Positions 4,110-28,874 of a DNA stretch of 28,874 nt are shown piece by piece. How positions within the stretch are numbered: position 1 is the first letter of the stretch; every line of letters begins with the position of its first letter. The notes beneath the pieces were generated by a model. That model was not told the DNA's origin and did no database searches. It was given only the letters and a program-made list of their open reading frames with translations. The position numbers and the translations under genes were made by a program. This DNA is from a virus. The stretch lies in the IMG/VR virus record IMGVR_UViG_3300020416_000042, positions 1 through 28,874 of that record; one strand, given 5' to 3'.

Positions 4110-4117
4110 TATTTATT
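4110..4117 (-). promoter_or_regulatory. Late-box match at the gp18 stop codon
   Basis: The minus strand reads AATAAATA, a NATAAATA match overlapping the last bases of gp18. It lies upstream of the terminator at 4059-4084, so a transcript from it would meet the hairpin almost at once. It may be a chance match or a source of short RNA. Confidence 0.3.
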
Positions 4118-6365
4118 ACGCTGCTACTTCAGTAAATGCAACACCACTTCTAGTTGCAGTAAATGTAAGAGTGATGTAGTTAATTGTGCGTGTTGGTTTC
4201 ACGAAAATTTCCGCGTAGAACTCACCACGATCAACTGCTTCAGATGGGTTATTATCCTCATCACACTTAACTAAGAAGTCTGTTACACCACGACGACCTT
4301 GAACTTCGCGAAGATAAGGTTCAACAATATTGAGGAATAGTGAACGCTGTGCAGCATCGTTTTGCTCAAAGAGTTGAGACTTAGCAGCACCAGAGATAAC
4401 TCTCTCAATTGTTAGGAACAGACGACGTACGTTGATTCTATCAAATGCGGATGCAAATCCTTGTGCAGTCTTATCACCGAATAGGACTACTCCTTGACCA
4501 GGGAAGGAAACAACGGGATTAACACGAGCACCATATAAACGATCACGTTGAGTCTTGTTAGGAGTATATGCAAGTTTGATTGCATTTCTCAAAACACCAC
4601 GTTGGAAACCAGCAGGTGAGAACCATGGTTCTGCAACTTCAGTAGTTTGTAAGCAAAGACCAGCAATGTCACCGTTAGTAGGAACGTAACGATAAACATC
4701 ATTGTACTTATCGTAGATGTACTTGTAACCAGAGTCAAATACAACGTAAGAACTAGAAGGTAAAGTATCAAAGAAACTAATAATGTTATTAGTAATTGTG
4801 TTTGCGTTGCTTAAACCAATAACGTTACCACGACGAGGAGATACAAATAACATGCAGTCACGACGCTCTTCAACAATATTTGTTAGAGCAGTGATCTTAG
4901 CGAGTGCTTCTGCATCTGTAGAACCAGAAGGACCAGTTAAGATAAAGTCGATAACTTGTGATTCAGGATCTTCAAGTAGTTCATATGCAGTACTTACATC
5001 TGTATTACTTACAGAATAAACACCACCAACAGAAGAGTAGTCAGCACCACCAGTAAGACTGTAGTAGAATGTTGAGTTATTCTTAGAACCTAAAGTTGTA
5101 CGTCCAGCAGGAAAATCAACAGATCCATCAGCAGAACGTAGAAGGTTAAACTGACGACTAGCTGCGGAAAGACCCCAAGTACCATCAGATCCAGTTGCGG
5201 TTGCGTTGAATACTCCAGTCTCATGCTCACCCCAGTAGATATACTCGGAACGTGCCTTCAGAACATTTACATAGTAATTTGTTTCACCAACAGAAGTCTT
5301 AGCATCAGATGCTTTAGAAACACCAATGAAACGCTCAAGTAAAGCACCAGTTGTACCAGTAATCTTACCATCAATATCAACTACAACGATGTGGAGTTCA
5401 TCACGGAATCCACCTGTTTCTGTAGCAAACTTAGAAGTTTCAGGACGTGGAGCAACGCTTACCCATTTTACACCAGGTAGATACTCACGCTCATCATACT
5501 CGTCACGAACAGAAGATGCTGTTGCAGAGTTACTATTAGTATCAGCAATTGCATCACTAGCAGCAAATGCAATACTATCTTTATTCAGAGCAGCATACAA
5601 ACGACGTTCGATGGTAGTATCAATAGCAGCAGTGTTTGTTCCCTGAGTAATTACTTGATTATCTGAAAGAATACCAGTAACACCACCAGAAGGAAGACCG
5701 ATTTCTAACTTCTTATTAGCAGGATCCCATGAGAGAACATTTACTGTTTCATCAGAACCACCAATACTAATTGTAGTTGCAGAACCAACTGTGAAATCAC
5801 CAACAACAGTGTCTACAGTAAGGACAATGCTATACTTGAAGACTTTACCAGCAGCACCAGATGCAGCAGTGATTGCTTCGTCAGCAACAAATTCCCATTC
5901 GTTACCTGAACCAGGTGCGGGAAGAACTACAATTTGATCTGCACCAGCATCAGTTACAAAGATACCGATAGAGTTTCCTTTGGTACCAGGAGTTTTTGCT
6001 GCCCATTCAAAACTGTTATTGGCAGTCTCAAAGTTAGTTTCGTAGTCTTGGAAATTTTTAATTAGAGGTGCAGTTCCAGTATTAACAGCATTTTTTAATG
6101 CACTTGCTGTTACACGAACTGTCTTAAGGATACCACCATATGAAAGAAACTGAGATGCTGTAAACCAGTACTCGTAGTTGTTATCATTTGGTTTCCCAAA
6201 AATATCTGTAAGTTGTCTCTCGTTAGAAATTTGTACAATTTCCTCAACAGGACCTTGCTCAAATGGTGCCGCAATTACGCCTACATTTGCGGTGGATAAT
6301 GTGGTAATAGTAGTCAGGTCTCTCTCCTGAATTACTACACCTGGCGATGATTGGTTAGCTGCCAT
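4116..6365 (-). CDS. 18: gp18 tail sheath protein
   Basis: This 749-residue protein compares with 659 for T4 gp18. It forms the contractile sheath around the gp19 tube. The N-terminus has the sheath pattern SSPGVVIQERDLTTI followed by GVIAAPFEQGPVEEIVQI. The C-terminal half has KLAYTPNKTQRDRLYGARVN, FPGQGVVLFGDKTA and NVRRLFLTIERVI, all standard for phage sheath proteins. The extra length lies partly in residues ~150-265, which contain small-residue-rich beta-like sequence resembling the repeats of the fibre and structural proteins in this window. A perfect TATAAATA lies upstream, and an AGGAG ribosome site is nine bases before the ATG. Confidence 0.97.
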   Translation of the reverse strand: MAANQSSPGVVIQERDLTTITTLSTANVGVIAAPFEQGPVEEIVQISNERQLTDIFGKPNDNNYEYWFTASQFLSYGGILKTVRVTASALKNAVNTGTAPLIKNFQDYETNFETANNSFEWAAKTPGTKGNSIGIFVTDAGADQIVVLPAPGSGNEWEFVADEAITAASGAAGKVFKYSIVLTVDTVVGDFTVGSATTISIGGSDETVNVLSWDPANKKLEIGLPSGGVTGILSDNQVITQGTNTAAIDTTIERRLYAALNKDSIAFAASDAIADTNSNSATASSVRDEYDEREYLPGVKWVSVAPRPETSKFATETGGFRDELHIVVVDIDGKITGTTGALLERFIGVSKASDAKTSVGETNYYVNVLKARSEYIYWGEHETGVFNATATGSDGTWGLSAASRQFNLLRSADGSVDFPAGRTTLGSKNNSTFYYSLTGGADYSSVGGVYSVSNTDVSTAYELLEDPESQVIDFILTGPSGSTDAEALAKITALTNIVEERRDCMLFVSPRRGNVIGLSNANTITNNIISFFDTLPSSSYVVFDSGYKYIYDKYNDVYRYVPTNGDIAGLCLQTTEVAEPWFSPAGFQRGVLRNAIKLAYTPNKTQRDRLYGARVNPVVSFPGQGVVLFGDKTAQGFASAFDRINVRRLFLTIERVISGAAKSQLFEQNDAAQRSLFLNIVEPYLREVQGRRGVTDFLVKCDEDNNPSEAVDRGEFYAEIFVKPTRTINYITLTFTATRSGVAFTEVAA

Positions 6366-10223: not shown

Positions 10224-10354
10224 CGTTTCACATCGTGAGCACAACCATCACCAGTGTAGTCATCACTATCATAGTAACCACCTTTAGTTCCAAAGAAGAT
10301 TGTTAATCCTACGAATGGAAGTGATACTAGTATTAGAAATGTTTCTAAAATCAT
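10220..10354 (-). CDS. 44-residue one-helix membrane protein, candidate NdhP-type partner of NdhI
   Basis: The ATG at 10354 overlaps the stop of the gene before it, and the TGA at 10220-10222 overlaps the ndhI ATG, both as ATGA. The protein begins [20 protein letters not shown], a single membrane helix, followed by a polar, acidic tail ([20 protein letters not shown]) and DVKR. The size, one helix and position before ndhI suggest a small NDH-1 subunit such as NdhP, which in cyanobacteria is about 40 residues with one helix. I could not compare sequences, so the name is a hypothesis. That it is a real gene is much better supported. Confidence 0.65.
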
Positions 10355-13972: not shown

Positions 13973-14757
13973 GATATTGTTTCATCAGCTCCACTTATAG
14001 GATTACGTTTCTTCTGATCTGTAAAGTCCTCATCGACAATACCAAATCCAAAGTCATCATCAGCATCTGCTGTAACAGGATCTGGTTGAATTGTATAACG
14101 AACTTGTCTGGGTGCAGAAGTTGTATTTGTATCGGTATAGTAATCTGTAATAACTTTTTTGATAGTTTTTGTATCGGTAACAGGACCGTATAGGTAAGTT
14201 TTTACAGTAAACTGTAAAGTATAAATTATTGCTCTACGAGTTTGAAAATTATTTTCGTAGTCATCTTCATAATCAACACTAGTTAAAACAACAGGAACAT
14301 CCTTTGTTTCATCTACATCAGGAACTAACTTAACTGCTAGATTAAAATGTGGTTGAAAGAAAGGAAGAATCTGTTCAAGAATCTGCAAACCATCTTCTTG
14401 ATTTTTAGAAATGATTGCTAGTTCAAATGAGAGATTATAAGGAACAGGCATGTAGACGTTCTTATTCTCATCAACATCCTTAGCAAATCTAATTTTTTGA
14501 GTAGGTGATACTTTTCTAGAAGAATCGTATTGTATACCATTAATCTCAAAAGAGATTCTAGGTAAAGTAATTTGAACTCTCTTATTTGTAGGATCTGGTA
14601 CTTGATCTAAACGTGCTAAAAACTTTTGCTTAGGACCATAAGCAAGAGGAACTTTCTGTACCTCGGTTGAACGACGAAGTTCGATGTTGTTAAACAACGT
14701 ACCAAACGCTACAACAGTTCTTCTAAAAATTTCGTGATATGAATATGTGCCTAACAT
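13969..14757 (-). CDS. 15: gp15 tail terminator / sheath stabiliser
   Basis: This 262-residue protein compares with 272 for T4 gp15. It caps the finished tail and joins it to the neck. It starts MLGTYSYHEIFRRTVVAFGT and contains TEVQKVPLAYGPKQKFLARL, then ITLPRISFEINGIQYDSSRK, and YNLSFELAIISKNQEDGLQI, typical of the family. The start overlaps the gp14 stop (TGATG), and the stop overlaps the gp16 start, so gp14-gp15-gp16 are coupled. Confidence 0.95.
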   Translation of the reverse strand: MLGTYSYHEIFRRTVVAFGTLFNNIELRRSTEVQKVPLAYGPKQKFLARLDQVPDPTNKRVQITLPRISFEINGIQYDSSRKVSPTQKIRFAKDVDENKNVYMPVPYNLSFELAIISKNQEDGLQILEQILPFFQPHFNLAVKLVPDVDETKDVPVVLTSVDYEDDYENNFQTRRAIIYTLQFTVKTYLYGPVTDTKTIKKVITDYYTDTNTTSAPRQVRYTIQPDPVTADADDDFGFGIVDEDFTDQKKRNPISGADETIS

Positions 14758-15683
14758 CAGATTGTAGTATCAGTAGTGGAACCAACAGAACCAAAGGGAT
14801 TGCCTTCTGAGAAATCTATGATATCATCATCAGCAGTTTCAAAACCAAAGTTTTGATCAACACTGTCAGCAGTATTAACGTTATTTAGTGTATTATAAGA
14901 AGCAGATGTCCAAGCAGCACCAGAAGTTTGACCAGTTACAGTTTCTGGTATGGTAAAGATACCAGATCTATTGAAGACTTGTAGTTGTCTGTCGGTAGAA
15001 TTCCATGCTTTGACTTCAGCAGTTACATTAGATGTACCACCAGCAACTACCTCACCAACAGTAAAGTCTCCACTACCACCAGCAGCAAAGTTAACTGTAA
15101 TAGCATTAGCAAATGCTGCCTCAATACCATCAATCTCTGCAACTCCAGTGTCAAGTGCCTCGTCTGCATACTGGAAGAGTTCACACTGACATTCCCAAAC
15201 ATATCCTTTTCCTAGTTGATAGAATGGTCTCTCTGCCTCAACAAATTGTATTTCAAATAAATGTTTAGTAGCGGGAAACCAAATTAAATCTCCTTCATTA
15301 GGTCGACCCTCAACATTTAATACTGCGTTATCATCTACAGCAGATGTAAACTTTTCTCTAGAAAAAACAAAGGTAGTTTTATCTTCAATACGAACACCAA
15401 ACTTACTTAACAATTCTCCTTGTCCTTCCCACCCTTCTACATTATTGACGTACGCTCTAACTTGTAATGCTTGTGTAAATCTACTATTCTCAACCTCACC
15501 TAAAATAGTGTCTCTATTTACATAGGTTCTGGGTAGATAGAAGATGTCTTGACCGTAGATTTCAATACTCTCTACAATTAAATTTTCTATAAAGGTTTGT
15601 TCTTGAGATGAACCATTTGCTTTTAGAAGATTTGTATGATCTCTAAAAACAAAATCCGATGCTGGAGAATTAGTAAATGCCAT
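14757..15683 (-). CDS. 14: gp14 neck protein
   Basis: This 308-residue protein compares with 256 for T4 gp14. With gp13 it forms the neck that closes the filled head. Family sequence is seen in QTFIENLIVESIEIYGQDIF, YLPRTYVNRDTILGEVENSR and RVYA-type segment QVRAYVNNVEGWEGQGELLS, and in PFYQLGKGYVWECQCELFQY. The extra length is mostly a late insertion at residues ~190-265, FTVGEVVAGGTSNVTAEVKA followed by IPETVTGQTSGAAW. This resembles the repeats in the fibre and large structural proteins of this window. Confidence 0.94.
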   Translation of the reverse strand: MAFTNSPASDFVFRDHTNLLKANGSSQEQTFIENLIVESIEIYGQDIFYLPRTYVNRDTILGEVENSRFTQALQVRAYVNNVEGWEGQGELLSKFGVRIEDKTTFVFSREKFTSAVDDNAVLNVEGRPNEGDLIWFPATKHLFEIQFVEAERPFYQLGKGYVWECQCELFQYADEALDTGVAEIDGIEAAFANAITVNFAAGGSGDFTVGEVVAGGTSNVTAEVKAWNSTDRQLQVFNRSGIFTIPETVTGQTSGAAWTSASYNTLNNVNTADSVDQNFGFETADDDIIDFSEGNPFGSVGSTTDTTI

Positions 15684-15684
15684 G

Positions 15685-16491
15685 TTAACCTATTAAATCC
15701 AAAGGAGGAAGTTCGTATGTTTCACGAACTGTTGTTTCAAGATCTTTCTTGAATTGACTTGCATCTTCAAGGATCTGACGACCGTTAAGAGTTACACCAC
15801 CAAGCATTTGAATGCCATCATACTTACTTAAGTTACGACCCCACTGTTGTTGGAATAATGCTTCCACATAGTCCTTCAACCAGTTGTCATTATACATTGC
15901 TGTATATGTATCTGGGTCTTGACGCATCAAAGTTTCAACTAAAATATGATCACCCGCTTGTAATTCTTCCCAATCAAAATCAAGATATAATCTACCTTGA
16001 TGCTCGTTGAATCTAATTCTACGACTATTGTTATTATTAGTAACCCAATCTAAAGTCTCAAGATATTGAGAAGTCATGTAATAATGAAGGATTTGACCGT
16101 GGGTCATTGAGTAAATATCATTCAAGAAAATTTGATATTTAATATTGAAGATATTACCAGGAACAACACTAGAAGCACCAATCTGACTAAAGACCCTAGT
16201 AACACTCATCACACCAGGAGGAAGATCAACATATTCAGTTCCTTCATACCAAGCAGTAGAACCAATCTGAGCAGTTGCTTGTGCTGCAGTTTTGATTGCA
16301 TCAGTTACTTCAATGTTAATAAAAGATTTGTAACTACCATTGTAATGATACTCTTGGTAGTAATCAATTGCCTCTTCAATTAAATCATCAAGTTGTTCGG
16401 TAGCAACGTTGATATCGATTGTAGGAAATCCTAACCTACGAAGAGCATAATCTCTTAATTCGGTTTTGTTTGCGGGTCTAGTTGCTGACAT
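15685..16491 (-). CDS. 13: gp13 neck protein
   Basis: This 268-residue protein compares with 309 for T4 gp13. It starts MSATRPANKTELRDYALRRL and continues with DLIEEAIDYYQEYHYNGSYK, the helical N-terminus typical of cyanophage gp13. It also has NIKYQIFLNDIYSMTHGQIL and FDWEELQAGDHILVETLMRQ. The C-terminus ends RETYELPPLDLIG. It leads the neck cluster gp13-gp14-gp15 and starts six bases past the fibre gene's stop. Confidence 0.94.
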   Translation of the reverse strand: MSATRPANKTELRDYALRRLGFPTIDINVATEQLDDLIEEAIDYYQEYHYNGSYKSFINIEVTDAIKTAAQATAQIGSTAWYEGTEYVDLPPGVMSVTRVFSQIGASSVVPGNIFNIKYQIFLNDIYSMTHGQILHYYMTSQYLETLDWVTNNNNSRRIRFNEHQGRLYLDFDWEELQAGDHILVETLMRQDPDTYTAMYNDNWLKDYVEALFQQQWGRNLSKYDGIQMLGGVTLNGRQILEDASQFKKDLETTVRETYELPPLDLIG

Positions 16492-16497
16492 TTTTTA

Positions 16498-19400
16498 TCA
16501 AGAGAATGATTGAACGGTGAGAGTAGTAACATCATTTGCACTGACGACTTCTCCTTTTTTGAAGAATCCATCAACAGTGTCAACGGTGATCTGATTAGAA
16601 CCAAGGGCGGTGATAACACCTGTGGTGCCACTAGTAGCACCAGTAACAGTTGAACCAACCTCCATTGTAGTAACGTCAGTCAGTTGTAAAGTTGCGTTAG
16701 TAGCAACAGTGGAGATATCGACCGTACCACCAGCACCACCTGCCTGAACAATAGTAATTGTCTCACCAGCGACATATCCAGTTCCACCGTCATTGATAGT
16801 GACGTTGGTAATCGCACCGCCAGAGGCAGTGATATCAACAGTGAGAGATGCAGATCCAGAACCACCTGTTGTTGCAAGAGCAGTTCCAGTTGTATATCCA
16901 GTACCACCAGTTATACTTCCTAGATTTAAGGTTAATACCTTACCTGCATTAGGGTTGGTAATGGTCACAGTGTCATTTAGAGTGTAGGCAGATCCACCTG
17001 CGTTTACTGCAACAGCAGTGATAACACCACTAGCAACAGTTGTGTTTACAGTTAGAGAGGATCCAGTTCCTCCAGAAGTGGCAACACCATTTGCAGCAGT
17101 AAATCCACCGCCACCACCATTAGTGACAACCGCAACAACACCAGCACCAGGTGTGGGATCTCCAGAAAGAGCTAGTGTTAGAGTTGTAGAAGATGCCAAG
17201 TTGTTTAACATTGCACTGAGTTGTTCAAATGCATTGTCAAGTTTTTCTTGTACTCTTGCCTCTGTATAATATTGATTAGTTCCTTCAGCAAGATCAGATG
17301 TAGTCTTGCTAGAAAGATCAAGGTTAGCACCAGTTGCAGCAGCAACTTTTAAGTCTGCTCTACCATCAGCACGAGTGTTTGTAAAGTAAAGATTAGTGCT
17401 ACCTTCTGTTAATGCATCAGTGTCATGGTTTGCAATACTAGAAACAGTACCAGTTACATCACCAGTTACATCTCCTTGTACATTACCAGTTACATTTCCA
17501 GTTAGTGATGCTGTGATAACACCAGCAGCAAAGTTACCAGATCCGTCACGTAAAACTAAGTTGTTTGCTGCGTTTGTAGCAGAAGAAGCAACGTTAATTG
17601 TTGTATTACCAGAAACACCATCCGCATTAGTAAGAGTAATACCAGAGGATGCTGTTACCTCAAGTTCTCTTTGAGCGTATGTATTTGCAGCAGTTCTTAC
17701 AACATATCCTGTTCCACTCATTGCTGCTAAAGCAGTGATATCAGCATCAACAAATGTTGTAGTGATGCTTACATCTGCAGATCCATTAAAGGATACAGTT
17801 CCAGAAACAACACCAGCAACTGCAATATTTCTTGCAGTCTCAAGAGTTGTTGCTGTAGAGGCGTTACCAGTCAGAGCAGCAGTAATTGTTCCTGCAGCAA
17901 AGTTACCAGATGCATCACGGTTAACAACTGTAGATGCTGTATTAGAACTTGCAGTTGTCATGCTATCAAGCAAGTCAACGTTCAGATTGTTAACCTTAGT
18001 AGTTGAAGCAATAGAGAATGGAGCACCGCTTGATTTATTAGAAACAATTTGACCATCAACAGTTAAAGCACCGTCAATGTTAGCATCATTATCTACATCA
18101 AGTGCTGTACCAGCAGCAGTAAGATTTAAACTACCAGCACGAAGAGCACTATCTGTACCAGCAAGAACCTCCGAAGTATTAGTTGCACTTGTTAAGAATG
18201 CGAACTGGTTGGCGGATCTGTCGTATCCGAAGAAACCAATTTTCGCACTGCCGTCAAAATAACGGAACTCAATACCACGATCTTTACCGTCGTTAGACGC
18301 GGGTGCTGTGTCACCACCCACAGTAATAATAGGGTCATCGATAGTTGTGACCGTAGAATTGACAGTAGTTGTTGTTCCATTGACCGTTAAATTACCTGTG
18401 ACTATAAGATCAGATGAAGCGGTTACATCACCTGCAACATCTAATGTTCCTTGAATATCTGTGTTACCATTATCAGTATCAACAGTAAATTTATCTACAC
18501 CACCAGCAGTCTCAATAGTAAATGTTTTATTGTCTGCTTTGATATTTACATTATCATTACATACTAAAGCACCAGAAATATCAGCACTATTATTAAGATC
18601 TAATGCTCCACTAAGTTCTGTGCCACCATAAACTCTTATACCTTCACCAACAGCAAGATTTTTACCGATGGCAGCACCACCAGTCAATTGGAATGCACCG
18701 TCAGCAGCGTATGAACCAGTTAGAGTTTGCTGAGTGTTTCTAGTGATTGTAGTAACACCAGAAACACCTAGAGTGTCATTAATCTGAGTTGCATCACCAA
18801 TCGTTACTGTTCCAATTATGTTTGTGTTACCATTATCAGTATCGATACTAAACTTAGTTACACCAGAACCATTGTTTATATTAACTACTTCATTATTACT
18901 TTGAACGATTAGAGAATCATTGATAGTTGTTTGACCTTCAACAACCAGAGTACCATCAGTTGCTACGTTACCTGTGGAAGAGGCAACAGTAAACTTATCA
19001 GTTGTACCTGATCTAACTGCAAAGTTATTATCAACATCTACAGTTCCATTGAACTCGGAGTTGTTTGATACAGTTAGTGTGCCACCAAGAGTTGTGTTAC
19101 TATCTACGTTAAGTGTAGAATTTAATTCAGTGTGACCATCAGCAGTTAGTGTGCCTTCAATGTTAGTATTTCCTGTTACATTATCAACAAAAAACTTATC
19201 AGTAGTTCCATTTCTAACAGCAAAATCTGCGTCAACATCAACTACACCATTAACATTTAATGATCCTTGAATTAAGGTATTACCATTATCTGTGTCAACT
19301 GTAAACTTATCAGTACCAGAACCATTCTGAATCGCAAACTCTTCATTAGAAGCATTGATAATTACAGAATCTTGAATAGTTGTTTGACCTTCAACATTCA

Positions 19401-22065
19401 GTGTGCCTTCGATATCGGTATTACCAGATGCACCCAAGACAGAGAACTTAACTGTATCATTAGAGTTTCTCTTACCAACGAATAAACCTTCTCCAGATCC
19501 TGTGGCACCAACATGTAAGTTCTGGTTAACACCTGCACCACCAAAGACTCTTAAGTTAGAAGTATTAGAGTTTGAGAATGATGGGTTAAATGCAGAGAAA
19601 GAACCAGCTCTTAGTTTGAATCGAACAGATAGGTAGTTTCTTAAACCAAAGTTTTCAGTAGAGTCTTCTTGCTGGTTAAAGTCACCATTTAGGAAGATGT
19701 TACCATTGAATAATACATCTTTATCAAAGTATCCACCACCATCTACTCTTAATGCACCATAGTCATTATTCTGAATTGAGTGAGGAGCACCAGATACAAT
19801 ATCAGGATTGTCTGTAGACTCAAGATGAACTAGAGATGATACGTTTAAGTTTGAATTTAAATCAGTATTTCCTGTGACTGTTACAACACCACCAAATTCT
19901 GCATTACCTGTTGTTGTATGAATTTCACTCTTAACAGTTCCTGATCCATTTTTAAATTGTAATGACTTGGAAGCACCATGCAATTCCATGGTGTCATCAA
20001 AACGAGATGTGCCATGAATGCGAAGGTTAGTATCTACATCTACACTACCACCAATATTAACATCATCTCCAATACCAGCACCACCAGCAACTACTAAATC
20101 TCCAGTAGTATTAGATGTTGAGTTTGTATTTGTTGTAAGTTTTAAATTTCCAGCGATGATCCCTGCATCTGTTCCAGAGAATACCTCTGCGGTATTTGTG
20201 GCATTGAAGAGGAATGTAAACGCTCCTGTATGCCCTCCAAGATCTGCGGCCGAATCATCATAACCAAAGAATCCAACTCTTGCCTGAGAGTCAAAGTATC
20301 TGAATTCAACTCCTCTATCCTTACCGTCATCTGATGCTGGAGCAGTATCACCACCAAGAGTGATAATAGGATCATCCAACGTAGTAACGGTTGAATTAAC
20401 TGTCGTAGTAGTTCCATCAACTTGTAGGTTACCTCTTATAGTTACTAGACCTGTGACATCTCTATCGTCATTAGGGTCAATTAAAATATCTCCAACAGCA
20501 CCAATGTGATCTGCTTGGAATCTCATTGTTTCTACATGAACTTTACCAGCAGCATCAGTAGCATTAATCTGAACAGTATCTTCTGCCTGAATAATTACAT
20601 TACTTGCACCAGAACCACTATTGGTAGCAGCAATTGATAGATTTCTAGCACTACCACTGTTTTGAGATATACCAATAGTTAAGTTTCCATCACCTGTTTT
20701 GTTTATTAATTGATCGGTTGCTCCATCAAATGTTACATCAGGGTCACTGATTAATGTTTTTACATTAATATCAACTTCTCCAGCACCACCATCACCAGTA
20801 TTATTAGCACCGAAGAGAAGATTGCCTGAAGTATCATTTACCTTAACGTAATTTAATTTATTGAATCCTCTATATCCTGTAGTTGCGGTAAGTTCTTGAT
20901 CTAAATCAAAATGTTCTACTGCGTTACCGTCAGCAAAGGATACTCTACTATTTTGTAACTGTGGATTATCAACACCTGCTGTAGCAATAGTAACGTGACC
21001 ACCAGCAGTAACATCAAAATCTTCCTGTGCAAATGATGCGAGACCTTTTTGTTCTGTGCTTTCAGCACCAAGGAATCTCCATCCACCTGCATCACCAGAA
21101 CCATGAGTAGGTGCTCCTCCGCCTGCACTTACATCTTCGAATGCTTGATATACCTTACTTGCATTTTTAATAATAGCATATCTGCTATATGCTGTTGCGT
21201 TATCATAATCAGGTGCAGTTGTGCCTTCTGCTGCTGTGGCGATTGGTACAGTTTCTGCACTTGTTAAACGACCGTAATCATCAACAGTAAATTTTGTAGC
21301 GTTAACTGTTTCTGATCCTACTACGGATGTTAGAGATTCTGTGTTGTAATTACCAGCAGTAACAGCAGTTGTAATAAGATCAATGGTGGGGTTTCCATTA
21401 ATACCGCCACCATCATTGATTGAAATTCTTGTTGCTGTACCAGTAATCGTACGAGTTACCATAGTATTACTGGTGCTTCTACTGATCAAACCAGTAGTGG
21501 TAAGACCTGCAATAGCAACTAGGTCTAAATCATATGGTTGAGCACCAGTTCCTTCAATGTTGGTATCTAAACCATATCCAGCAAGAGTTGTTGGGTTGGA
21601 AGCATTCTTAACTCTACCTTTCGCATCTACTACAACTTTAGTATATGTTCCCTCAGATGAAGCAGTGTTGTCGTGGTGAGGTAATGTAGAAAGTAAATCT
21701 AGAGTTGAAGTAATAGTAATGTTTTGTGATCCATCAAAAATTTGTGATCCTTCAACATCACCTGCCAATTGAATTTGTCTAGAGGAAGCAAGTCTAGAAG
21801 CTGTTGCCGAGTTACCAATAAGGGTTGCAGTAATTGTACCTGCAGAAAAATTACCATCAGCATCCCTTTGTACAAGAGTATTTGCTGTATTAGATACTGA
21901 TTCAATAGGACGCTCATATCTAAGAGTGTTCCATGATGTTACACCATCACCAATTTTGATACGACCAGTATCAAGTTCAACCCCAAACTCACCTTGAGCG
22001 AGAATAGGATTTGAGTTTTGCCATTCTTGGGCACCACCTCTTCTTAATTGAATTCTATTTGCCAT
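16498..22065 (-). CDS. Giant tail-fibre-like protein with repeats, 1855 residues
   Basis: The N-terminus (RIQLRRGGAQEWQNSNPILA, then GEFGVELDTGRIKIGDG) matches the Mtd N-terminal / hyaluronidase-like domain found on phage fibres. Next come fibre repeats of the form DGNFSAGTITATLIGNSATA (again at ~17.9 and 17.5 kb). A central array carries DTDNGNT-type units. Two near copies of a larger module are TVTTLDDPIITLGGDTAPAS and TVTTIDDPIITVGGDTAPAS, about 2 kb apart. The C-terminal ~220 residues are Gly/Thr-rich beta repeats (GTGYVAGETITIVQAGGAGG). The protein probably binds host surface structures. A CATAAATA box precedes the start. No chaperone-type intramolecular protease was recognised. Confidence 0.85.
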   Translation of the reverse strand: MANRIQLRRGGAQEWQNSNPILAQGEFGVELDTGRIKIGDGVTSWNTLRYERPIESVSNTANTLVQRDADGNFSAGTITATLIGNSATASRLASSRQIQLAGDVEGSQIFDGSQNITITSTLDLLSTLPHHDNTASSEGTYTKVVVDAKGRVKNASNPTTLAGYGLDTNIEGTGAQPYDLDLVAIAGLTTTGLISRSTSNTMVTRTITGTATRISINDGGGINGNPTIDLITTAVTAGNYNTESLTSVVGSETVNATKFTVDDYGRLTSAETVPIATAAEGTTAPDYDNATAYSRYAIIKNASKVYQAFEDVSAGGGAPTHGSGDAGGWRFLGAESTEQKGLASFAQEDFDVTAGGHVTIATAGVDNPQLQNSRVSFADGNAVEHFDLDQELTATTGYRGFNKLNYVKVNDTSGNLLFGANNTGDGGAGEVDINVKTLISDPDVTFDGATDQLINKTGDGNLTIGISQNSGSARNLSIAATNSGSGASNVIIQAEDTVQINATDAAGKVHVETMRFQADHIGAVGDILIDPNDDRDVTGLVTIRGNLQVDGTTTTVNSTVTTLDDPIITLGGDTAPASDDGKDRGVEFRYFDSQARVGFFGYDDSAADLGGHTGAFTFLFNATNTAEVFSGTDAGIIAGNLKLTTNTNSTSNTTGDLVVAGGAGIGDDVNIGGSVDVDTNLRIHGTSRFDDTMELHGASKSLQFKNGSGTVKSEIHTTTGNAEFGGVVTVTGNTDLNSNLNVSSLVHLESTDNPDIVSGAPHSIQNNDYGALRVDGGGYFDKDVLFNGNIFLNGDFNQQEDSTENFGLRNYLSVRFKLRAGSFSAFNPSFSNSNTSNLRVFGGAGVNQNLHVGATGSGEGLFVGKRNSNDTVKFSVLGASGNTDIEGTLNVEGQTTIQDSVIINASNEEFAIQNGSGTDKFTVDTDNGNTLIQGSLNVNGVVDVDADFAVRNGTTDKFFVDNVTGNTNIEGTLTADGHTELNSTLNVDSNTTLGGTLTVSNNSEFNGTVDVDNNFAVRSGTTDKFTVASSTGNVATDGTLVVEGQTTINDSLIVQSNNEVVNINNGSGVTKFSIDTDNGNTNIIGTVTIGDATQINDTLGVSGVTTITRNTQQTLTGSYAADGAFQLTGGAAIGKNLAVGEGIRVYGGTELSGALDLNNSADISGALVCNDNVNIKADNKTFTIETAGGVDKFTVDTDNGNTDIQGTLDVAGDVTASSDLIVTGNLTVNGTTTTVNSTVTTIDDPIITVGGDTAPASNDGKDRGIEFRYFDGSAKIGFFGYDRSANQFAFLTSATNTSEVLAGTDSALRAGSLNLTAAGTALDVDNDANIDGALTVDGQIVSNKSSGAPFSIASTTKVNNLNVDLLDSMTTASSNTASTVVNRDASGNFAAGTITAALTGNASTATTLETARNIAVAGVVSGTVSFNGSADVSITTTFVDADITALAAMSGTGYVVRTAANTYAQRELEVTASSGITLTNADGVSGNTTINVASSATNAANNLVLRDGSGNFAAGVITASLTGNVTGNVQGDVTGDVTGTVSSIANHDTDALTEGSTNLYFTNTRADGRADLKVAAATGANLDLSSKTTSDLAEGTNQYYTEARVQEKLDNAFEQLSAMLNNLASSTTLTLALSGDPTPGAGVVAVVTNGGGGGFTAANGVATSGGTGSSLTVNTTVASGVITAVAVNAGGSAYTLNDTVTITNPNAGKVLTLNLGSITGGTGYTTGTALATTGGSGSASLTVDITASGGAITNVTINDGGTGYVAGETITIVQAGGAGGTVDISTVATNATLQLTDVTTMEVGSTVTGATSGTTGVITALGSNQITVDTVDGFFKKGEVVSANDVTTLTVQSFS
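18222..18375 (-). repeat. Fibre internal duplication, copy B
   Basis: This segment encodes NSTVTTIDDPIITVGGDTAP, ASNDGKDRGIEFRYFDGSAK and IGFFGYDRSA. It closely matches copy A at about 20236-20410, about 2 kb upstream in the same gene. Copy A has an extra ADLGGHTG stretch before its FLFNATNTAEV. The copies differ by many synonymous and a few conservative changes, so the duplication is old or under selection. Confidence 0.8.
18430..19480 (-). repeat. Array of degenerate fibre repeats (DTDNGNT type)
   Basis: At least six units share the pattern K-F-x-V/I-D-x-x-x-G-N-T-x-I-x-G-T-L-x-V-x-G. Examples are KFTVDTDNGNTDIQGTLDV, KFSIDTDNGNTNIIGTVTI, KFFVDNVTGNTNIEGTLTAD and KFSVLGASGNTDIEGTLNVE. Two units keep 20 identical bases (+ strand 18461-18480 and 18824-18843). 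Such units usually form stacked beta structure in fibre shafts. Confidence 0.75.
20236..20410 (-). repeat. Fibre internal duplication, copy A
   Basis: This segment encodes NSTVTTLDDPIITLGGDTAP, ASDDGKDRGVEFRYFDSQAR and VGFFGYDDSAADLGGHTG. It pairs with copy B at about 18222-18375. Confidence 0.8.
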
Positions 22066-22102
22066 TTTATTAGGACAACTCTATGAGAACATGCTTCCAA
22101 GT

Positions 22103-22110
22103 TATTTATG
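22103..22110 (-). promoter_or_regulatory. Late promoter box before the fibre gene
   Basis: The minus strand reads CATAAATA, a NATAAATA match, 37 bases before the fibre ATG and only five bases after the T-run of the upstream terminator. This makes the fibre gene a separate late unit. Confidence 0.68.
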
Positions 22111-22115
22111 TCAGT

Positions 22116-22138
22116 AAAAAGGGGGCATTACTGCCCCC
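22116..22138 (-). terminator. Intrinsic terminator after the 78-aa gene
   Basis: On the minus strand GGGGGCA and TGCCCCC form a perfect 7-bp GC-rich stem with a 4-base loop, followed at once by TTTTT. It ends the unit made of the giant structural gene and the three small genes. Confidence 0.9.
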
Positions 22139-22145
22139 ATATTCA

Positions 22146-22382
22146 TTATGCAGTTTCAAGGTTATCTACAACCTCTTCATCTGGAGGTGCAGACTCCTCT
22201 TTGTTGTAATACTCTAATGCTTCGATAGCACCTTGGAGTTTTAGAGCAACAACTTCATTACCTTTAATTTTTTCAGATAATTGTTTATTTTCCTCGATAA
22301 CCGCATTGAAACGCTCTCTAAATTGTCGGAGCATTTCTGGTTGTGTCACCTGTTCTACAGGTGCATTCGCATCATCTGTCAT
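22146..22382 (-). CDS. 78-residue coiled-coil protein
   Basis: The central part is a long helix with heptads: EMLRQFRERFNAVIEENKQL, then SEKIKGNEVVALKLQGAIEA. The tail is acidic (SAPPDEEVVDNLETA). It overlaps the 81-aa gene by 11 bases and is followed by the terminator. It may be a fibre or tail assembly helper by position before the fibre gene. I do not recognise a characterised family. Confidence 0.72.
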   Translation of the reverse strand: MTDDANAPVEQVTQPEMLRQFRERFNAVIEENKQLSEKIKGNEVVALKLQGAIEALEYYNKEESAPPDEEVVDNLETA

Positions 22383-22617
22383 TTTTATCTTGGACTAACG
22401 TTAGTAAAAGTGATTTAATTTCACTCATTTCTGATTTTAACTCAGAAACCTCATTTTGTAAAGCTTGTTTATCACGTGCTTCTTTTTGCCTCTTATTGTA
22501 AGATGCCATATATTTATCATATTCATCAGCACTGCTTTTTATGATAGCATTGGAATAAGGATCTCTATAAAGACCCTCCTTTCCTTCAACAGGAATTAAT
22601 CCTTCAAGTTCATCCAT
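22372..22617 (-). CDS. 81-residue protein with C-terminal coiled coil
   Basis: The N-terminus, MDELEGLIPVEGKEGLYRDP, is followed by YSNAIIKSSADEYDKYMASY. The second half is a coiled coil (ALQNEVSELKSEMSEIKSLL). I recall this N-terminal type in T4-like marine phages at the same place, but the function is unknown. It overlaps both neighbours (8 and 11 bases), so translation is coupled. Confidence 0.75.
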   Translation of the reverse strand: MDELEGLIPVEGKEGLYRDPYSNAIIKSSADEYDKYMASYNKRQKEARDKQALQNEVSELKSEMSEIKSLLLTLVQDKNDR

Positions 22618-22924
22618 GAATATTCTCCGATCCTCCTACAGCAAAAGGGTTGTATTTTGCCCTTGCCATTCTATACATTTTTTCATGCATAGTTACTATC
22701 TCTTCAGCACCCTTCTCAAAGTCAGGTGTTGATTCGTGACGTGAAGCATAAGCATCTGCTATTTCTTCTTCAGGTCTGGGGTTTTCATAACCTAGTTCTT
22801 TTCTCATGTCATCATGGAGTCTTTCTGTAGGAGTTTTATCTGTTGCCACTGGCCAAGAGTCATAAGGGTGTGCTTTTTCATCATCAAACCAATCATCCAA
22901 AGGTAGTCTGTGTAAAGGTGCCAT
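22610..22924 (-). CDS. 104-residue acidic/aromatic protein of unknown function
   Basis: It starts MAPLHRLPLDDWFDDEKAHP and continues YDSWPVATDKTPTERLHDDM. The second half is helical (GAEEIVTMHEKMYRMARAKY) and ends with a short Gly/Asn tail. Its ATG overlaps the giant gene's stop (TAATG), so it is probably translated by reinitiation. The position suggests a virion or assembly accessory. Confidence 0.72.
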   Translation of the reverse strand: MAPLHRLPLDDWFDDEKAHPYDSWPVATDKTPTERLHDDMRKELGYENPRPEEEIADAYASRHESTPDFEKGAEEIVTMHEKMYRMARAKYNPFAVGGSENIHG

Positions 22925-25900
22925 TAGGTTGCAAGTGCGATAGCACGTAAATCTGCAATCAAAGGAACTCTTGCTTGACTTGAAGATCTTAAAACGATCT
23001 TAAGTTGGAATGCGTTAAAGTTTAAACCACTTACTTCATAGTAATAATCCTTCCAAAGAATTTCTTCACTAGGAGAATCATCATACTGAAGAGGTTTATC
23101 CATTTGTGTCCAACCGATAGAATCGATGTCATCACCAGTTCCAGTGCTAAATGCTCTGTAGTAAAGTCTAACATCTGCCTCTGGTGGACGGGACATTTGG
23201 AAATCAACTCTAATTGATCTAGACTCTCTAATTAAACGAGCAAGTCGTGTGATGTATACACAATCATTTTGATCACCTAGTGGTAGAAGAGAAACGTCTT
23301 GTGTACGATCAATTTGTCCTTGCTGACCATATGGAGATGATCCACCTGGCCATTGATTGATTCTATTAGTTGTTGTAATTAAAGAACATCTATCTAAATC
23401 AACAACAGGAGAAAGAGTTGACTTTGTGGTTGACAAATCAATGAGCATAGTCAATGATTTTTGTCCATCTAGTTTAGCATTTTCATTAACTTCCGAACAA
23501 ACCATCTTAGGATTGGGGAAGAAGTTTTGATCGTTTAATGTAATGGGAACATAACTACCATCATTAACAAATGATGCTTGATCACGAGGAGTAGAACCTC
23601 CTTCACCACCACCATCACCAACAGATGTTGCTGTAGTTGTATTGATTCTAGCAGTAATATCTGTTTCTGGCAAATTCATTACAGAAACAGTAGGTGTTAG
23701 AGTTTCAAACTGTGTATTCTGAGAAGCGTAAACCATGTTTCCACCAGCACGAATACCATTATTTGCTACACCTTGCATTTGAAGCATATACGTATCCATC
23801 CAAGGACACTCAAGACTTGTGTGAGTCTTGTTAATATCAACTAGAGGAAGACCATCAAGATTATAGCATTGAACAACCGCAGCAGATGCATGTGTTACAT
23901 CAGTAGTTCCATTAGAACCTCTACCACCAGTTGCTACAGTAATTGTTTTACCATCAGTAGAGATAGCACTGTACTTAATGATTTCATCGTTAATCTTAAC
24001 GTATCCTGGATTCACATTACTAATCGCTGCACCATTCACAACTTTGTGGAATGCTTGTGCATTTTCAACCGTGATTGATGTTGCAGCTGCTGCCAACGCA
24101 CTAGTAAGAGTTGTATCACCAACTTCAGAAATTACACCTTCAATACTTACATTATTCTGTCTACTATGCATACCACTGTTTCTATGATAAACAAGAATTT
24201 CTTTCTCATCATTTGCATAGGTAGGTGCAGTAGAAAGGAATCCACCAAATGAATCACCACTTTCAGTAGAAGAAGTTACAGTTGCAGTCCAACCACCAGA
24301 CTCATTTAGAGTTTCAGTAGCAGTAAAGGCACCAGTAATATAATGAAGAACTAATGCAGTAGATCCGTTCCAACTCTTAACAATACCGACAGAACCAGAA
24401 GTTGCACCAGTAACAGTATCACCAACCTCTAGAGTTCCAGTTACACTACCAACAACCATAGTTGCAAGAGATTCAGAAGACCTTAAGAGGAAGGTAGTAG
24501 AAGATCCACCTAACCAATTACCAGAAACATCATTAACCGTAATTGTATCTGCAACAGATGCAGATGTAGTAGAAGAAACAACAGTTGATTCAGCATTTGA
24601 AGTAAGTTGTAGCAAACGAGCACCAACACTGTAAGTATACTGAGAACCAGCAGGACCAAGAGTTAGTACAATTTTTGGTTTGATAGTTTGAATTGGATTG
24701 TCAATCAATCTGTGTATACCACCATTACCCTTACCTTGTGCTGTATTATTAAGAGCAACAGTTCCACTAGTTGCAGTGAAGTTTGCACGATATACAGTAA
24801 ACTTCAGATCTTCATATTGGTCAGCAGTCCATGTAGATGCGTTTTGTGATTTGAATAGAACACCAGCATAAGGTTGTTCAGAAATTGTTCTATTACCACT
24901 AACATCAACATCACCCATTCTAGAAATCCAAACTTGGTATTCATTAGAGTCAGATAGAAGAACAAAGCAATATTCAACAGATGACTTAATGTATACAGGT
25001 GCTTGGAAAGTAAACTTAGTAGCAACAGCAGCACTTTCTGAAACTTCTACTTGATCTGGTGTAATAGTAACATCTGAGAATGGAAGAATTGTTTTAGTTG
25101 GATAACCATTTTCCATTGTTCTGATCTGCATCGAGATCGGAATATTATCATCTTTAGTATTAAAGAAGATTTCAACAGAAGAGATGAATACACCACCTTC
25201 TTCCTCAACAATAAAGGATTGAGCAAGAGGGTCATACCAACCAACCTGACGTGTCTCGGTTCTAGTTGTTTCTACAACTCTATCTTCACTAACTGTATCT
25301 CTAACAAGTTCAGCATTACGAATTGCAAGAATATTTTCTTGAACAGTTTGTAATGTTCCTGTTGCTGAGTAAGTTGTATCAGCAGAAGAATCTACTGCAC
25401 CAATTGCCTTACTATTTTCTGGAGATGTTGTAAATCTAAATGAACGAGTACCTGTTGCCCAACGTGGATTTGCATCATTTTTGGGAGAAGGAACAAAGAA
25501 CGTACCTTGTAGATTACCAACGTTATCTGTTAAGAGGCGGCGATCTCCAACAACTGCTCTTGCACCAGAAGTTTGACCAACTAAAATTTCACCAACTTGC
25601 ATATTACCAAAGAAATCTGGTGATACAGTTTCAGATATAGCAGTTATATCATGGTTTAGAAGTGCTGTTTGAGAAGCATATGAAGTAGGAAGAGTTTCTG
25701 TACCTCTACCATAAGGATTGGTTTTATAACCATCATCAGGAGCAACAACTTTTAACTGACAACCTGAAGTTTCTCCACGCACAGTTTCACCAACAACAAA
25801 AGGAGTTTCATTTGTTCTAGAATCAGTTGTTGAATTTTTAATAAGTTCAATTACCTTAGGAGTGAGGTATGTAGTTACATCAACACCATCAAAGAATGCA

Positions 25901-28874
25901 TACATTCTAGTACGTGGTTTCATACGATCAACGTTGAAACCTATGTTACGAGATCTAATCCAAGGAATACTACTTCTAGAAAGAACTGTATCACCTAATG
26001 ATCTCCTTTCAATCTTAGGAACAACTCTAGTACGAATACCTTGACGTGCTTGGTTGTTTACAACACGGAATGTACGACGTTCGTGTAGGTAGAATAGACC
26101 TTGACGACGTTGACCATGACCAGCACGACCTAACTGACGACCAATTCCATATGTACCAGACGTAGATCTTTGTTGAGAAGTTGATTGTAATGTTTCACCA
26201 GTCCAGTTAGTTTGCCATGAACCCCATTGAATAGGAGCAAATCCATTTTGATCAACTTGTAAGTCTCTTGATACAGAGGAGAAATCACCCTCGATGTTTT
26301 CAACACGAGCAGGTATACGCTCAGTATCAATCCAATCATCAGATGCAGGTGTTAGATCAATGCGTCCAATAAAGGTAAAGACGTTAAATGGGTTTACATT
26401 CTCTGTTCTAGAGGCATATGGTTGAGTAATAAGTGCTACATCTTCAAAAGGTAGCATCAATACATTACCATCAGTTTTTACAATATTAGTAGAATCTGTT
26501 TCGTTATATTGAAGTGCTACGTTTGTTGTAAAGTGTTGTGGACGTAATTGACCTTCTCTAAAGTCAAGAGAACATTTATAATCTGGATTAAGAACATCTC
26601 CAGTAGTATGGTCGGTGAAGTCATCAACAACATAACCATTCTTTAAACGATCAAATCCATTCTCATCATAAGTCTTGGTGTTTTCTGCTTGAGATTCAAG
26701 CATTGAAAGTGAAGTATAATATTCAACGTGGGTAAGTCTTTGCTCAAGATCACCAATATCTTTCATCGTATATCTTCTGATAACTTCTGTAGTAATCAGA
26801 ACATCTCTTTCTGGATCAAATACAAATGGTTTGTATTCAAGAGTTGCCAAAAGCATAGCATTCTCAACTTTTGGAGGTGGAATGAGGAAATAACCAGATA
26901 CACCTTTACTTACAATTAATTGACCATCATGCGATAGATATATCTTGTCAATTCTTGGAAGATACCAAGCATAGTCTGCTCTAAACGAAGAGTTAACTTT
27001 CATGATATCAAAGATAGTTGCACCACCAGCACCACCAGTAGTATCAAATACCCTAGAAACAAAATCAAAGGTACTACAATTTACAAAGTATGGATCACTA
27101 ACAGTTCCAGTACCATTTCTTAATTCTTTAACAGCAGGTCGGAAATCAATTTGATCTCTAATATACTTAATAGAACCATCCAACTTATAAGCGGGAATGT
27201 CTTTGTAACCAATACCACTATAAGATTCTGCTGAGAAATAATCACCAGATGCTTCATGAGTAAAGAAGTCAAAAATTACAAGCAATCTTCTTGTAGGTGC
27301 TACAGTAGAAGGAAGGCGAATTAGTTTTGATGTGTCATAGAAATTAGTTCTTTGTCCTGGTTCAAGTTCAAATTGATCAGTAATAACTTTACTTCCTGCA
27401 AAAATAGATTCTTCGCCGTCATCGATAATACCAGTAATGGTATCTCCAGCACTATTTTCACCAGTAATAGTTTCTCCTGTAATAAATGGAATTTCATTCA
27501 AACCAACATAATATAGTTTTAGATCTGCGTTAGAGAATGAAATAACTCTACCTCTGGCACCAGAAGTTTTACCAACAATTAGTGTGCTTGCAGCAAAGAA
27601 TACAGATTCAGTAAGAATTACATATGGTGAAGATGCATCGTTATCATCAAATGATTCATAGATTGCATGAACATTGTAAACATCATTAACACCAAATGAA
27701 ATATCTAAATCTTCAACTCTAGTTCCATAAAGAGTACTATGAATAAGACCTGTTGGTTGTGTATCTACATCAGTCTCAGTCTTAAATACTTTCAATGACC
27801 TCATCTTAGAAGCGGTCTTAATTTTTCTAGCAACAGTATTCTTAGAGACCAACGCTGTAAGAGTTACTGTAGCAACATTGGTAAGACCACTAATTGAGAA
27901 AGATTGGTTGTCAGAACCAAAAGATGTTGACAACACACCAGCATCTACTTGTGCATCAATATCTACATTTTCTCCATCAGAAAATACTGTGGATGTTCCA
28001 TTATCAATAATTGTAAGAATATAATTATCACCAGATAATGCACCAAATGCTTCAGTCTCAGGAAGAGTAAATGTAATAGAACCTGAAGTTACTGTTTTGG
28101 ATGCAAAGTTTCTAAAGACAAAGAATGACTCATCATCCAGAGACTTCATTGTATCTTCTGGAAGGTCAAAAGAAAGTTCTCCGTTTTGATAATCTTTCTG
28201 GAAGATGAAAGGACGTAACCTAACTAGTTCGCCATATTCGCCAGCAGTAACTGTACCAACCTTCAAAGCATTATCAAGTCTAGCAGTTTGATCACTAAAG
28301 TTAAAAACTGCATCTACTCCTAAAACTGTAGATTTTCTATTTACTGAAGTAGTTGCAATAGCAGTTGGATCAACTCTCTTAATACGGAGAGTGTTTGTGC
28401 CTTCTAAATCAGAAAGTGTTGGAGTAACTACATCACCAGGTCTCAGATCTTTTTCAAATCTTGTACGGAAACCAGTGATATCTTCACGACCAACACTAGC
28501 AACATCAAAAGTTGCATTACCACCACCGCCAGTGATAGTAATAGTTTCATTAATATCGTAACCAGATCCAGCATTGTTGACAGTCACCCCTGTAACTGCA
28601 CCTGCTGTAACAGTAATATCGACTGTTAAGTTGCTACCATTACCACCAGTTGTAGCAACACCTGTAGCATTTGAATATCCACTACCACCAACGATAGTAT
28701 CTACAGTAAGAACGTCACCAGTTGTTTCATCAATATTTACTGTGGAAGACTCAATAGGACGTGAATCATTTAGAATCCAGTTTGCACCAAATCTAATAGC
28801 ACTAGAACCATCAAGACCAAAGGAAGATCTAACATCACTTAATTGATAAGTATGTGCTGCCTCTAAGGTTCCAG
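22924..28874 (-). CDS. Giant virion structural protein, likely baseplate/tail periphery (N-terminus beyond window)
   Basis: The frame stays open to the right edge, giving at least 1982 residues; the GTG at 28587 is internal. The N-terminal visible part has Gly/Thr-rich beta repeats (ITVTAGAVTGVTVNNAGSGY). Around 26.7 kb is MKDIGDLEQRLTHVEYYTSL. Around 25.2 kb is a domain starting GWYDPLAQSFIVEEEGGVFI, with EIFFNTKDDNIPISMQIRTM and SSVEYCFVLLSDSNEYQVWI; I know this from many phage tail or baseplate proteins. The C-terminus has LDRCSLITTTNRINQWPG and FQMSRPPEADVRLYYRAFST. In cyanomyoviruses a protein like this lies between the baseplate wedge genes and gp13. Its T4 counterpart is uncertain, though gp10-type is possible. 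Confidence 0.8.
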   Translation of the reverse strand, partial: GTLEAAHTYQLSDVRSSFGLDGSSAIRFGANWILNDSRPIESSTVNIDETTGDVLTVDTIVGGSGYSNATGVATTGGNGSNLTVDITVTAGAVTGVTVNNAGSGYDINETITITGGGGNATFDVASVGREDITGFRTRFEKDLRPGDVVTPTLSDLEGTNTLRIKRVDPTAIATTSVNRKSTVLGVDAVFNFSDQTARLDNALKVGTVTAGEYGELVRLRPFIFQKDYQNGELSFDLPEDTMKSLDDESFFVFRNFASKTVTSGSITFTLPETEAFGALSGDNYILTIIDNGTSTVFSDGENVDIDAQVDAGVLSTSFGSDNQSFSISGLTNVATVTLTALVSKNTVARKIKTASKMRSLKVFKTETDVDTQPTGLIHSTLYGTRVEDLDISFGVNDVYNVHAIYESFDDNDASSPYVILTESVFFAASTLIVGKTSGARGRVISFSNADLKLYYVGLNEIPFITGETITGENSAGDTITGIIDDGEESIFAGSKVITDQFELEPGQRTNFYDTSKLIRLPSTVAPTRRLLVIFDFFTHEASGDYFSAESYSGIGYKDIPAYKLDGSIKYIRDQIDFRPAVKELRNGTGTVSDPYFVNCSTFDFVSRVFDTTGGAGGATIFDIMKVNSSFRADYAWYLPRIDKIYLSHDGQLIVSKGVSGYFLIPPPKVENAMLLATLEYKPFVFDPERDVLITTEVIRRYTMKDIGDLEQRLTHVEYYTSLSMLESQAENTKTYDENGFDRLKNGYVVDDFTDHTTGDVLNPDYKCSLDFREGQLRPQHFTTNVALQYNETDSTNIVKTDGNVLMLPFEDVALITQPYASRTENVNPFNVFTFIGRIDLTPASDDWIDTERIPARVENIEGDFSSVSRDLQVDQNGFAPIQWGSWQTNWTGETLQSTSQQRSTSGTYGIGRQLGRAGHGQRRQGLFYLHERRTFRVVNNQARQGIRTRVVPKIERRSLGDTVLSRSSIPWIRSRNIGFNVDRMKPRTRMYAFFDGVDVTTYLTPKVIELIKNSTTDSRTNETPFVVGETVRGETSGCQLKVVAPDDGYKTNPYGRGTETLPTSYASQTALLNHDITAISETVSPDFFGNMQVGEILVGQTSGARAVVGDRRLLTDNVGNLQGTFFVPSPKNDANPRWATGTRSFRFTTSPENSKAIGAVDSSADTTYSATGTLQTVQENILAIRNAELVRDTVSEDRVVETTRTETRQVGWYDPLAQSFIVEEEGGVFISSVEIFFNTKDDNIPISMQIRTMENGYPTKTILPFSDVTITPDQVEVSESAAVATKFTFQAPVYIKSSVEYCFVLLSDSNEYQVWISRMGDVDVSGNRTISEQPYAGVLFKSQNASTWTADQYEDLKFTVYRANFTATSGTVALNNTAQGKGNGGIHRLIDNPIQTIKPKIVLTLGPAGSQYTYSVGARLLQLTSNAESTVVSSTTSASVADTITVNDVSGNWLGGSSTTFLLRSSESLATMVVGSVTGTLEVGDTVTGATSGSVGIVKSWNGSTALVLHYITGAFTATETLNESGGWTATVTSSTESGDSFGGFLSTAPTYANDEKEILVYHRNSGMHSRQNNVSIEGVISEVGDTTLTSALAAAATSITVENAQAFHKVVNGAAISNVNPGYVKINDEIIKYSAISTDGKTITVATGGRGSNGTTDVTHASAAVVQCYNLDGLPLVDINKTHTSLECPWMDTYMLQMQGVANNGIRAGGNMVYASQNTQFETLTPTVSVMNLPETDITARINTTTATSVGDGGGEGGSTPRDQASFVNDGSYVPITLNDQNFFPNPKMVCSEVNENAKLDGQKSLTMLIDLSTTKSTLSPVVDLDRCSLITTTNRINQWPGGSSPYGQQGQIDRTQDVSLLPLGDQNDCVYITRLARLIRESRSIRVDFQMSRPPEADVRLYYRAFSTGTGDDIDSIGWTQMDKPLQYDDSPSEEILWKDYYYEVSGLNFNAFQLKIVLRSSSQARVPLIADLRAIALAT

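Follow-up and report, generated by a model that had tools for sequence, protein, structure and literature searches.

The neck protein gp14, a fibre-like protein, the giant baseplate protein VrlC and, very probably, the sheath protein gp18 of a T4-like marine phage carry copies of the same small domain, which we call the T module. As judged from profile comparisons, the T module is a real promiscuous domain family that has no model in Pfam or NCBIfam; promiscuous accessory domains of phages are already known in general. The DNA analysed (the window) is 28,874 bases long, and its structural genes are all on the minus strand in the order gp21, gp20, gp19, gp18, gp17, a variable block, gp16, gp15, gp14, gp13, a fibre-like protein, small genes and a giant protein. 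The structural gene order matches that of a near relative, Prochlorococcus phage P-SSM7 (Kyanoviridae), whose gp14 is 96% identical to the gp14 of the window. The latter was assigned as a T4-like neck protein (PF11649) from the match of its core and from the gp13-gp14-gp15 order, which is as in P-SSM7. The genes that bear T modules are as follows:

4116..6365, minus strand: gp18, tail sheath (Pfam Phage_sheath_1/_1C; VIA-align against T4-like sheaths, Z 38)
14757..15683, minus strand: gp14, neck protein/head closure Hc2, 308 amino acids (Pfam T4_neck-protein, 3.4e-33; PHROG460, 1.1e-141)
16498..22065, minus strand: fibre-like structural protein, 1855 amino acids (PHROG697; Mtd_N at the N-terminus)
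22924..28872, minus strand: VrlC/DUF4815 giant baseplate protein, N-terminus past the window end (PHROG358; DUF4815, 3.7e-34; the name VrlC is taken from relatives)

VrlC is truncated by the window edge (1982 codons are present, compared with 2534 amino acids in the P-SSM7 orthologue), and since the window end cuts the gene, the GTG at position 28587 is a false start of its open reading frame. The fibre gene (16498-22065) lies directly upstream of gp13, where T4 has wac (fibritin), and its product might form neck whiskers. Within the variable block, between gp16 and gp17, lies ndhI, coding for NAD(P)H-quinone oxidoreductase subunit I (9681-10244, minus strand; NCBIfam TIGR00403, 307.5 bits against a cut-off of 302.35); there is no such annotation in the corresponding variable block of P-SSM7.

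The initial annotation of this DNA had drawn attention to a short repeat motif recurring in unrelated virion proteins, and each peptide that it quoted is found in the protein named. The repeat is real, but the unit that recurs is about 65 residues long, and the quoted motif corresponds to its first hairpin only. On the sequence evidence, the quoted peptides are pieces of one homologous 65-70-residue unit with the consensus GxFxxGExVtGxtSGxtGxVxsWdxxxxxLxlxxvxGxFxxGExvxG, in which the second hairpin also has a GE. In the window, gp14 and the C-terminus of the fibre have one copy each, VrlC has two complete copies and two or three half copies, and gp18 very probably has a degenerate one. They are given below with E-values from a profile that itself contains several of them; the search of other phages with whole families left out serves as the independent test.

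5586..5876, minus strand: probable degenerate T-type barrel, an insertion in gp18 at residues 164-260 (hhalign match, residues 189-244; model strand order as in the gp14 module)
14889..15104, minus strand: T module of gp14, residues 194-265 (profile match 14886-15080, E 2.6e-27; predicted six-stranded beta-barrel)
16504..16677, minus strand: fibre T module, at the very C-terminus (E 5.9e-14)
24256..24441, minus strand: T module, VrlC site c (E 3.4e-17)
24514..24642, minus strand: possible degenerate T unit adjoining VrlC site c, before it (E 0.59 in the window)
25537..25608, minus strand: T half unit in VrlC, GEILVGQTSGARAVV (E 2e-4)
25756..25812, minus strand: T half unit in VrlC, GETVRGETSG (E 0.0027)
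27415..27612, minus strand: T module, VrlC site b (E 2.8e-20)

At the equivalent place in relatives, the possible degenerate unit of VrlC reaches E-values of 0.004 (P-SSM7) and 2.7e-8 (S-MbCM6).

The copies in the initial annotation had been picked by eye, and a fair test is therefore one in which whole families are left out of the profile. The families left out in turn were gp14, the fibre, each VrlC site, gp8 and PHROG708. In other phages all of them were recovered, with the best E-value per family ranging from 6.5e-4 to 2.7e-14 and the worst single copy at 0.025; the profile built without fibre copies, for example, recovered the T module of the P-SSM7 fibre with an E-value of 3.3e-6. The proposal that a single domain family is common to unrelated virion proteins is thus borne out by the recovery of the gp14, fibre and VrlC families. 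Reversed and shuffled proteomes were free of T matches, with two exceptions: a single leave-out run gave two matches to reversed sequences at E<=10, and 500 locally shuffled proteomes gave 15 matches up to E 1, the best at 1.2e-4. Among the 736 open reading frames of the P-SSM7 genome, significant T matches occur in virion genes only.

It might be argued that Gly/Thr-rich beta-hairpins of several proteins came to resemble each other independently. The host proteins of the module are all beta-rich and biased in composition, and one chance match at E 1e-4 did arise among the 500 shuffled replicates. Yet the family-excluding profiles match most of the length of the module, with G, E, W and the second GE in register, and no structural protein of T4 matches the T profile. 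The strict pattern [VIL]xGxTS[GN] occurs seven times in nine virion proteins, whereas 2000 shuffles that preserve local composition contain 0.2 on average and at most 4, none reaching 7. A frequency no higher than expected for Gly/Thr-rich beta proteins, named in the initial annotation as a refuting outcome, was not obtained. We consider such convergence scarcely credible.

The T module has no family in Pfam or NCBIfam (the top Pfam match, a restriction-endonuclease SH3 fragment, is far under the cut-off). Its profile retrieved nothing under E 0.25 from the PDB sequences, and no match was found in the plasmid collection. Searches of the open-access literature on the motif, on cyanophage neck and baseplate structures and on VrlC turned up no description of it.

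The excess length of gp14 over its T4 counterpart (256 amino acids, no T match) is largely the T module, as had been suggested. The module sits in the C-terminal arm, with the core on one side of it and a conserved acidic tail on the other, and is the best-predicted part of an AlphaFold model whose overall mean pLDDT is 71 and pTM 0.57. Within the module, pLDDT is 82-92 over most of the length, and strands are predicted at residues 194-199, 212-215, 221-228, 233-237, 248-251 and 257-264. In gp18, a T profile from which gp18 itself was excluded matched residues 189-244 in hhalign (probability 75%, P 2.6e-5), while the negative controls gp13, gp15, gp19, gp20, gp9 and the DUF7243 protein each gave less than 1% for the same profile. 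The AlphaFold model of gp18 has a mean pLDDT of 84, about 90 in the barrel, with strands at 172-188, 196-201, 204-214, 219-223, 238-241 and 244-260. As can be seen from the strand lists (rather than from a superposition), the order of strands is the same in the gp14 and gp18 barrels and their spacing is roughly alike. The T module is thus predicted to be a six-stranded beta-barrel in both proteins; the initial annotation had raised a common fold for the two insertions, and different folds were not obtained. A degenerate copy, also suspected there, is very probably present in gp18, judging by one profile match and the modelled strand order; we regard the assignment as good but not conclusive.

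Tail sheath proteins carry additional domains on a conserved core, away from the tube, according to PMC9230969 and PMC3004832, and domain I of T4 gp18 (residues 98-188) is a six-stranded barrel (PMC3004832). The predicted six-stranded barrel of the window gp18 is an addition of this kind but, unlike domain I, is related to domains of other virion proteins. By alignment landmarks, the window barrel comes after the PGxxGNxI strand and domain I before that strand; the insertion point therefore seems to differ from that of domain I and to lie later, apparently in domain II. A fold search with whole gp18 returned only sheaths. In another gp18 (L130, 2001-4247) an apparent repeat of a second type, the G module described below, occupies the site that the T-type barrel has in the window protein.

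Some of the proteins that house T modules have relatives without them. The VrlC core is homologous to the baseplate protein ORF65 of Staphylococcus phage 812 (DUF4815, PDB 9euf). Both are DUF4815 proteins of contractile-tail baseplates, but ORF65 has 1152 amino acids compared with 2534 in P-SSM7 VrlC, and the aligned stretches exclude the T-module sites. The VrlC orthologue of pelagiphage HTVC008M is without T sites b and c, and the flanking core aligns. The fibre C-terminus has a different ending in Syn9 and S-MbCM6. T modules of relatives are also found on gp8, on a wedge protein (PHROG708), on gp13 and on gp15: relatives bear modules at one spot of gp13, and some of them also in gp15, while the window has none in either. 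Since the cores of the host proteins exist without T in T4 and in module-free orthologues, the T module is, by these comparisons, accessory. Apart from the module, the homology of VrlC and ORF65 distantly connects the baseplates of marine T4-like phages with those of Herelleviridae.

A second shared repeat, which we call the G module (GGSGY...TVDIT...GAITNVTVNNGGSGY), is present twice in the fibre, before the T module, and once in VrlC:

16750..16896, minus strand: G module, second copy of the fibre (E 7e-12)
16960..17100, minus strand: G module, first copy of the fibre (E 2.4e-10)
28534..28677, minus strand: G module in VrlC (E 3.7e-15)

In Syn9, S-CAM22 and S-MbCM6, G repeats are nested within the first hairpin of the gp14 T module, and in gp14 of S-SM2 and P-SSM2 about four of them precede an intact T module; it is because of such added G repeats that many cyanophage gp14 genes are at least about 80 codons longer than that of the window. 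G repeats also occur in gp8, in PHROG708 (six or seven copies) and in the structural protein 090 of P-SSM7 (L003, 5052-26426; 7124 amino acids), which has at least 17. The idea that the G module corresponds to domain I of T4 gp18 was dropped, the Pfam match having an E-value of only 1.

Gain, loss and nesting of modules are thus seen between lineages, and one may ask if modules are mobile now, being recombined between genes of one genome as a device for diversification. Their presence or absence does vary among related phages, and the G repeats nested in the T module of some gp14s would be consistent with such traffic. However, the host-protein labels can be mapped on a tree of 59 T copies with 8 changes, the smallest number possible, as opposed to 34.3 for shuffled labels, the alignment being short, several joins weak and near-copies by themselves giving some clustering; further, no near-identical T copies were found in different genes of one phage. 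Since T copies cluster by site, their spread appears to be old, with descent by site and not by movement between genes. The tree, whose testimony against present mobility covers the T module, suggests that the spread took place long ago and does not suggest recent movement between genes. Present-day mobility is, in our opinion, very unlikely. Of the original proposal of a mobile or adaptable surface domain within one virion, the shared domain stands and a surface location is likely from position; mobility at present is largely contradicted, for the T module, by the tree, and the 82-94% identity of the gp14 module to those of isolates, to which we return below, argues against adaptability.

A query with the T consensus retrieved many virus contigs and at least 25 loci on bacterial contigs. 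The proteins at the latter, some of them phage-like, include a J-type tail fibre, a major tail protein family bearing an Ig-like domain, and relatives of the wedge protein and of VrlC. One of the bacterial-contig copies (L295, 2109-3068) belongs to a major tail protein, and another (L294, 1098-6134) stands beside a PilY1 propeller in a bacterial protein.

Comparison with solved structures by VIA-align matched the gp14 core to T4 gp14 (Z 11) and residues 192-275 of gp14 to residues 765-852 of a chain of the T4 baseplate 5iv5 (Z 7.9, rmsd 2.7 over 81 residues; a Z below 8 can mean merely a common barrel). We infer that this chain is gp7, because the entry contains gp7 and the chain, with 1004 of 1032 residues modelled, has the right length. 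The next closest structures were the barrels of EF-Tu and aIF2 gamma, with Z of about 6. The T4 gp7 barrel is therefore the closest of the listed solved structures to the gp14 module and likewise belongs to a tail protein, but the sequence similarity is not significant: comparisons of the T module with T4 gp7 by sequence or profile gave P 0.52 for the single sequence, 0.08 for the family and 0.012 for the domain slice. The presence of a recognisable T module in T4 gp7 was accordingly rejected, the sequence match being not significant even with 27 relatives, and the similarity was kept as a structural lead. It could be that the T module stems from a gp7-type barrel (765-852) resident in the baseplate, of which marine phages acquired copies in their neck and sheath. 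Such an origin would be compatible with the function that we favour below; it is suggested by a match about 2 Z units over the EF-Tu and aIF2 barrels, and the top sequence match falls in the corresponding strand. Weighing against it are the P-values of 0.01-0.5, the Z below 8, which may reflect a common barrel alone, and the marine T-bearing wedge protein, which is without profile similarity to T4 gp7. We think this origin unlikely.

Ig-like domains of tailed phages are accessory and were spread by domain shuffling over virion proteins of the outer surface (Fraser et al. 2006, as cited in PMC10684548). The T module resembles them in being a small accessory beta domain on several unrelated virion proteins. 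Unlike them, it matches no Ig family: five T copies gave none in Pfam up to E 10, and three gave none in NCBIfam. Its predicted fold seems closer to a closed barrel than to an Ig sandwich; the listed solved folds nearest to the gp14 module are barrels (T4 gp7, EF-Tu and aIF2 gamma) with no Ig among them, and an Ig fold may yet lie beyond that list. Smug et al. 2023 (PMC10684548) describe fragments that are common to phage proteins otherwise unrelated, among them proteins of the tail, baseplate and neck passage. The phenomenon is the same, with one family here on the neck, sheath, baseplate and fibre of one virion; the word "cyanophage" is absent from that paper, and its passages on domain sharing do not describe the T module.

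As to function, T4 gp14 has a C-terminal arm (residues 178-256) that becomes ordered on gp15, binding it upon tail docking (PMC12270204). From the positions of the copies in the gp14 arm and in the VrlC baseplate protein, outward-facing barrels are predicted, and T modules likely face outward on the virion. The T module is probably an independently folding barrel that was inserted long ago by marine T4-like phages and acts as an accessory surface domain, bracing or cementing its neighbours or docking tail parts. The barrel would have been inserted into the C-terminal arm of gp14, a loop of gp18, C-terminal parts of gp8 and the wedge protein, loops of VrlC and the tip of the fibre. The cores of these proteins would fold and assemble without the barrel, which would stay outside, where it most likely braces or cements adjacent subunits or gives docking points to other parts of the tail. 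Since the arm that holds it binds gp15 in T4 after tail attachment, the gp14 barrel probably strengthens the joint of neck and tail.

The main rival to bracing is that T modules are weak adhesion domains which, being present in many copies on the tail, bind host polysaccharides with low affinity and make productive adsorption likelier, as has been proposed for phage Ig-like domains. The sites on neck, sheath, baseplate and fibre are likely exposed, extra sheath domains have been proposed as adhesion aids (PMC9230969), and homologous modules occur in proteins of bacterial contigs with PilY1 or J-fibre domains; the copy at the fibre tip together with those by the PilY1 propeller and in the J-type fibre would fit adhesion. 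Against it, Pfam shows no match to a carbohydrate-binding family, the copies cluster strictly by host protein, and the gp14 module is 82-94% identical to those of six isolates from Prochlorococcus (NATL1A, MIT9303) and Synechococcus (WH7803, WH6501, WH8102, WH8109) hosts. Its identity to the P-SSM7 module is 94%, compared with 98% for the core, and in the other five isolates the module is above the core; the point holds for isolates only, the module being less conserved than the core in L016 and L017, environmental relatives at a greater distance. A receptor-binding surface is expected to vary and a brace is not, and conservation of the gp14 module across hosts therefore favours bracing and seems to fit a structural role better than receptor binding. 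A conserved surface could also bind a receptor common to all picocyanobacteria. On balance, adhesion is possible but doubtful. More speculatively, the barrel family might form a tail-wide surface connector, with the copies on neck, sheath, baseplate and fibre as parts of a single interaction system, homotypic or mediated by a common partner, which keeps the tail in register; the source would be a barrel already resident in the baseplate, such as that of T4 gp7. We hold this to be quite improbable.

Whatever its role, the T module alone transfers labels between proteins. I899_gp055 of HTVC008M (L012, 33435-36485) bears the label "head closure Hc2" in a wedge position, between gp6 and gp8; the full gp14 profile matches it through the module columns only, and the core-only profile gives no match. 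Likewise, the VrlC gene of S-MbCM25 is labelled "neck protein". Whole-protein annotation of marine phages thus needs masking of the module. In common marine viruses, one family is present on nearly every outer part of one contractile tail, and it illustrates the elaboration of a conserved injection machine whose core stays unchanged. T modules are defined, removable domains with which the role of tail decoration may be tested.
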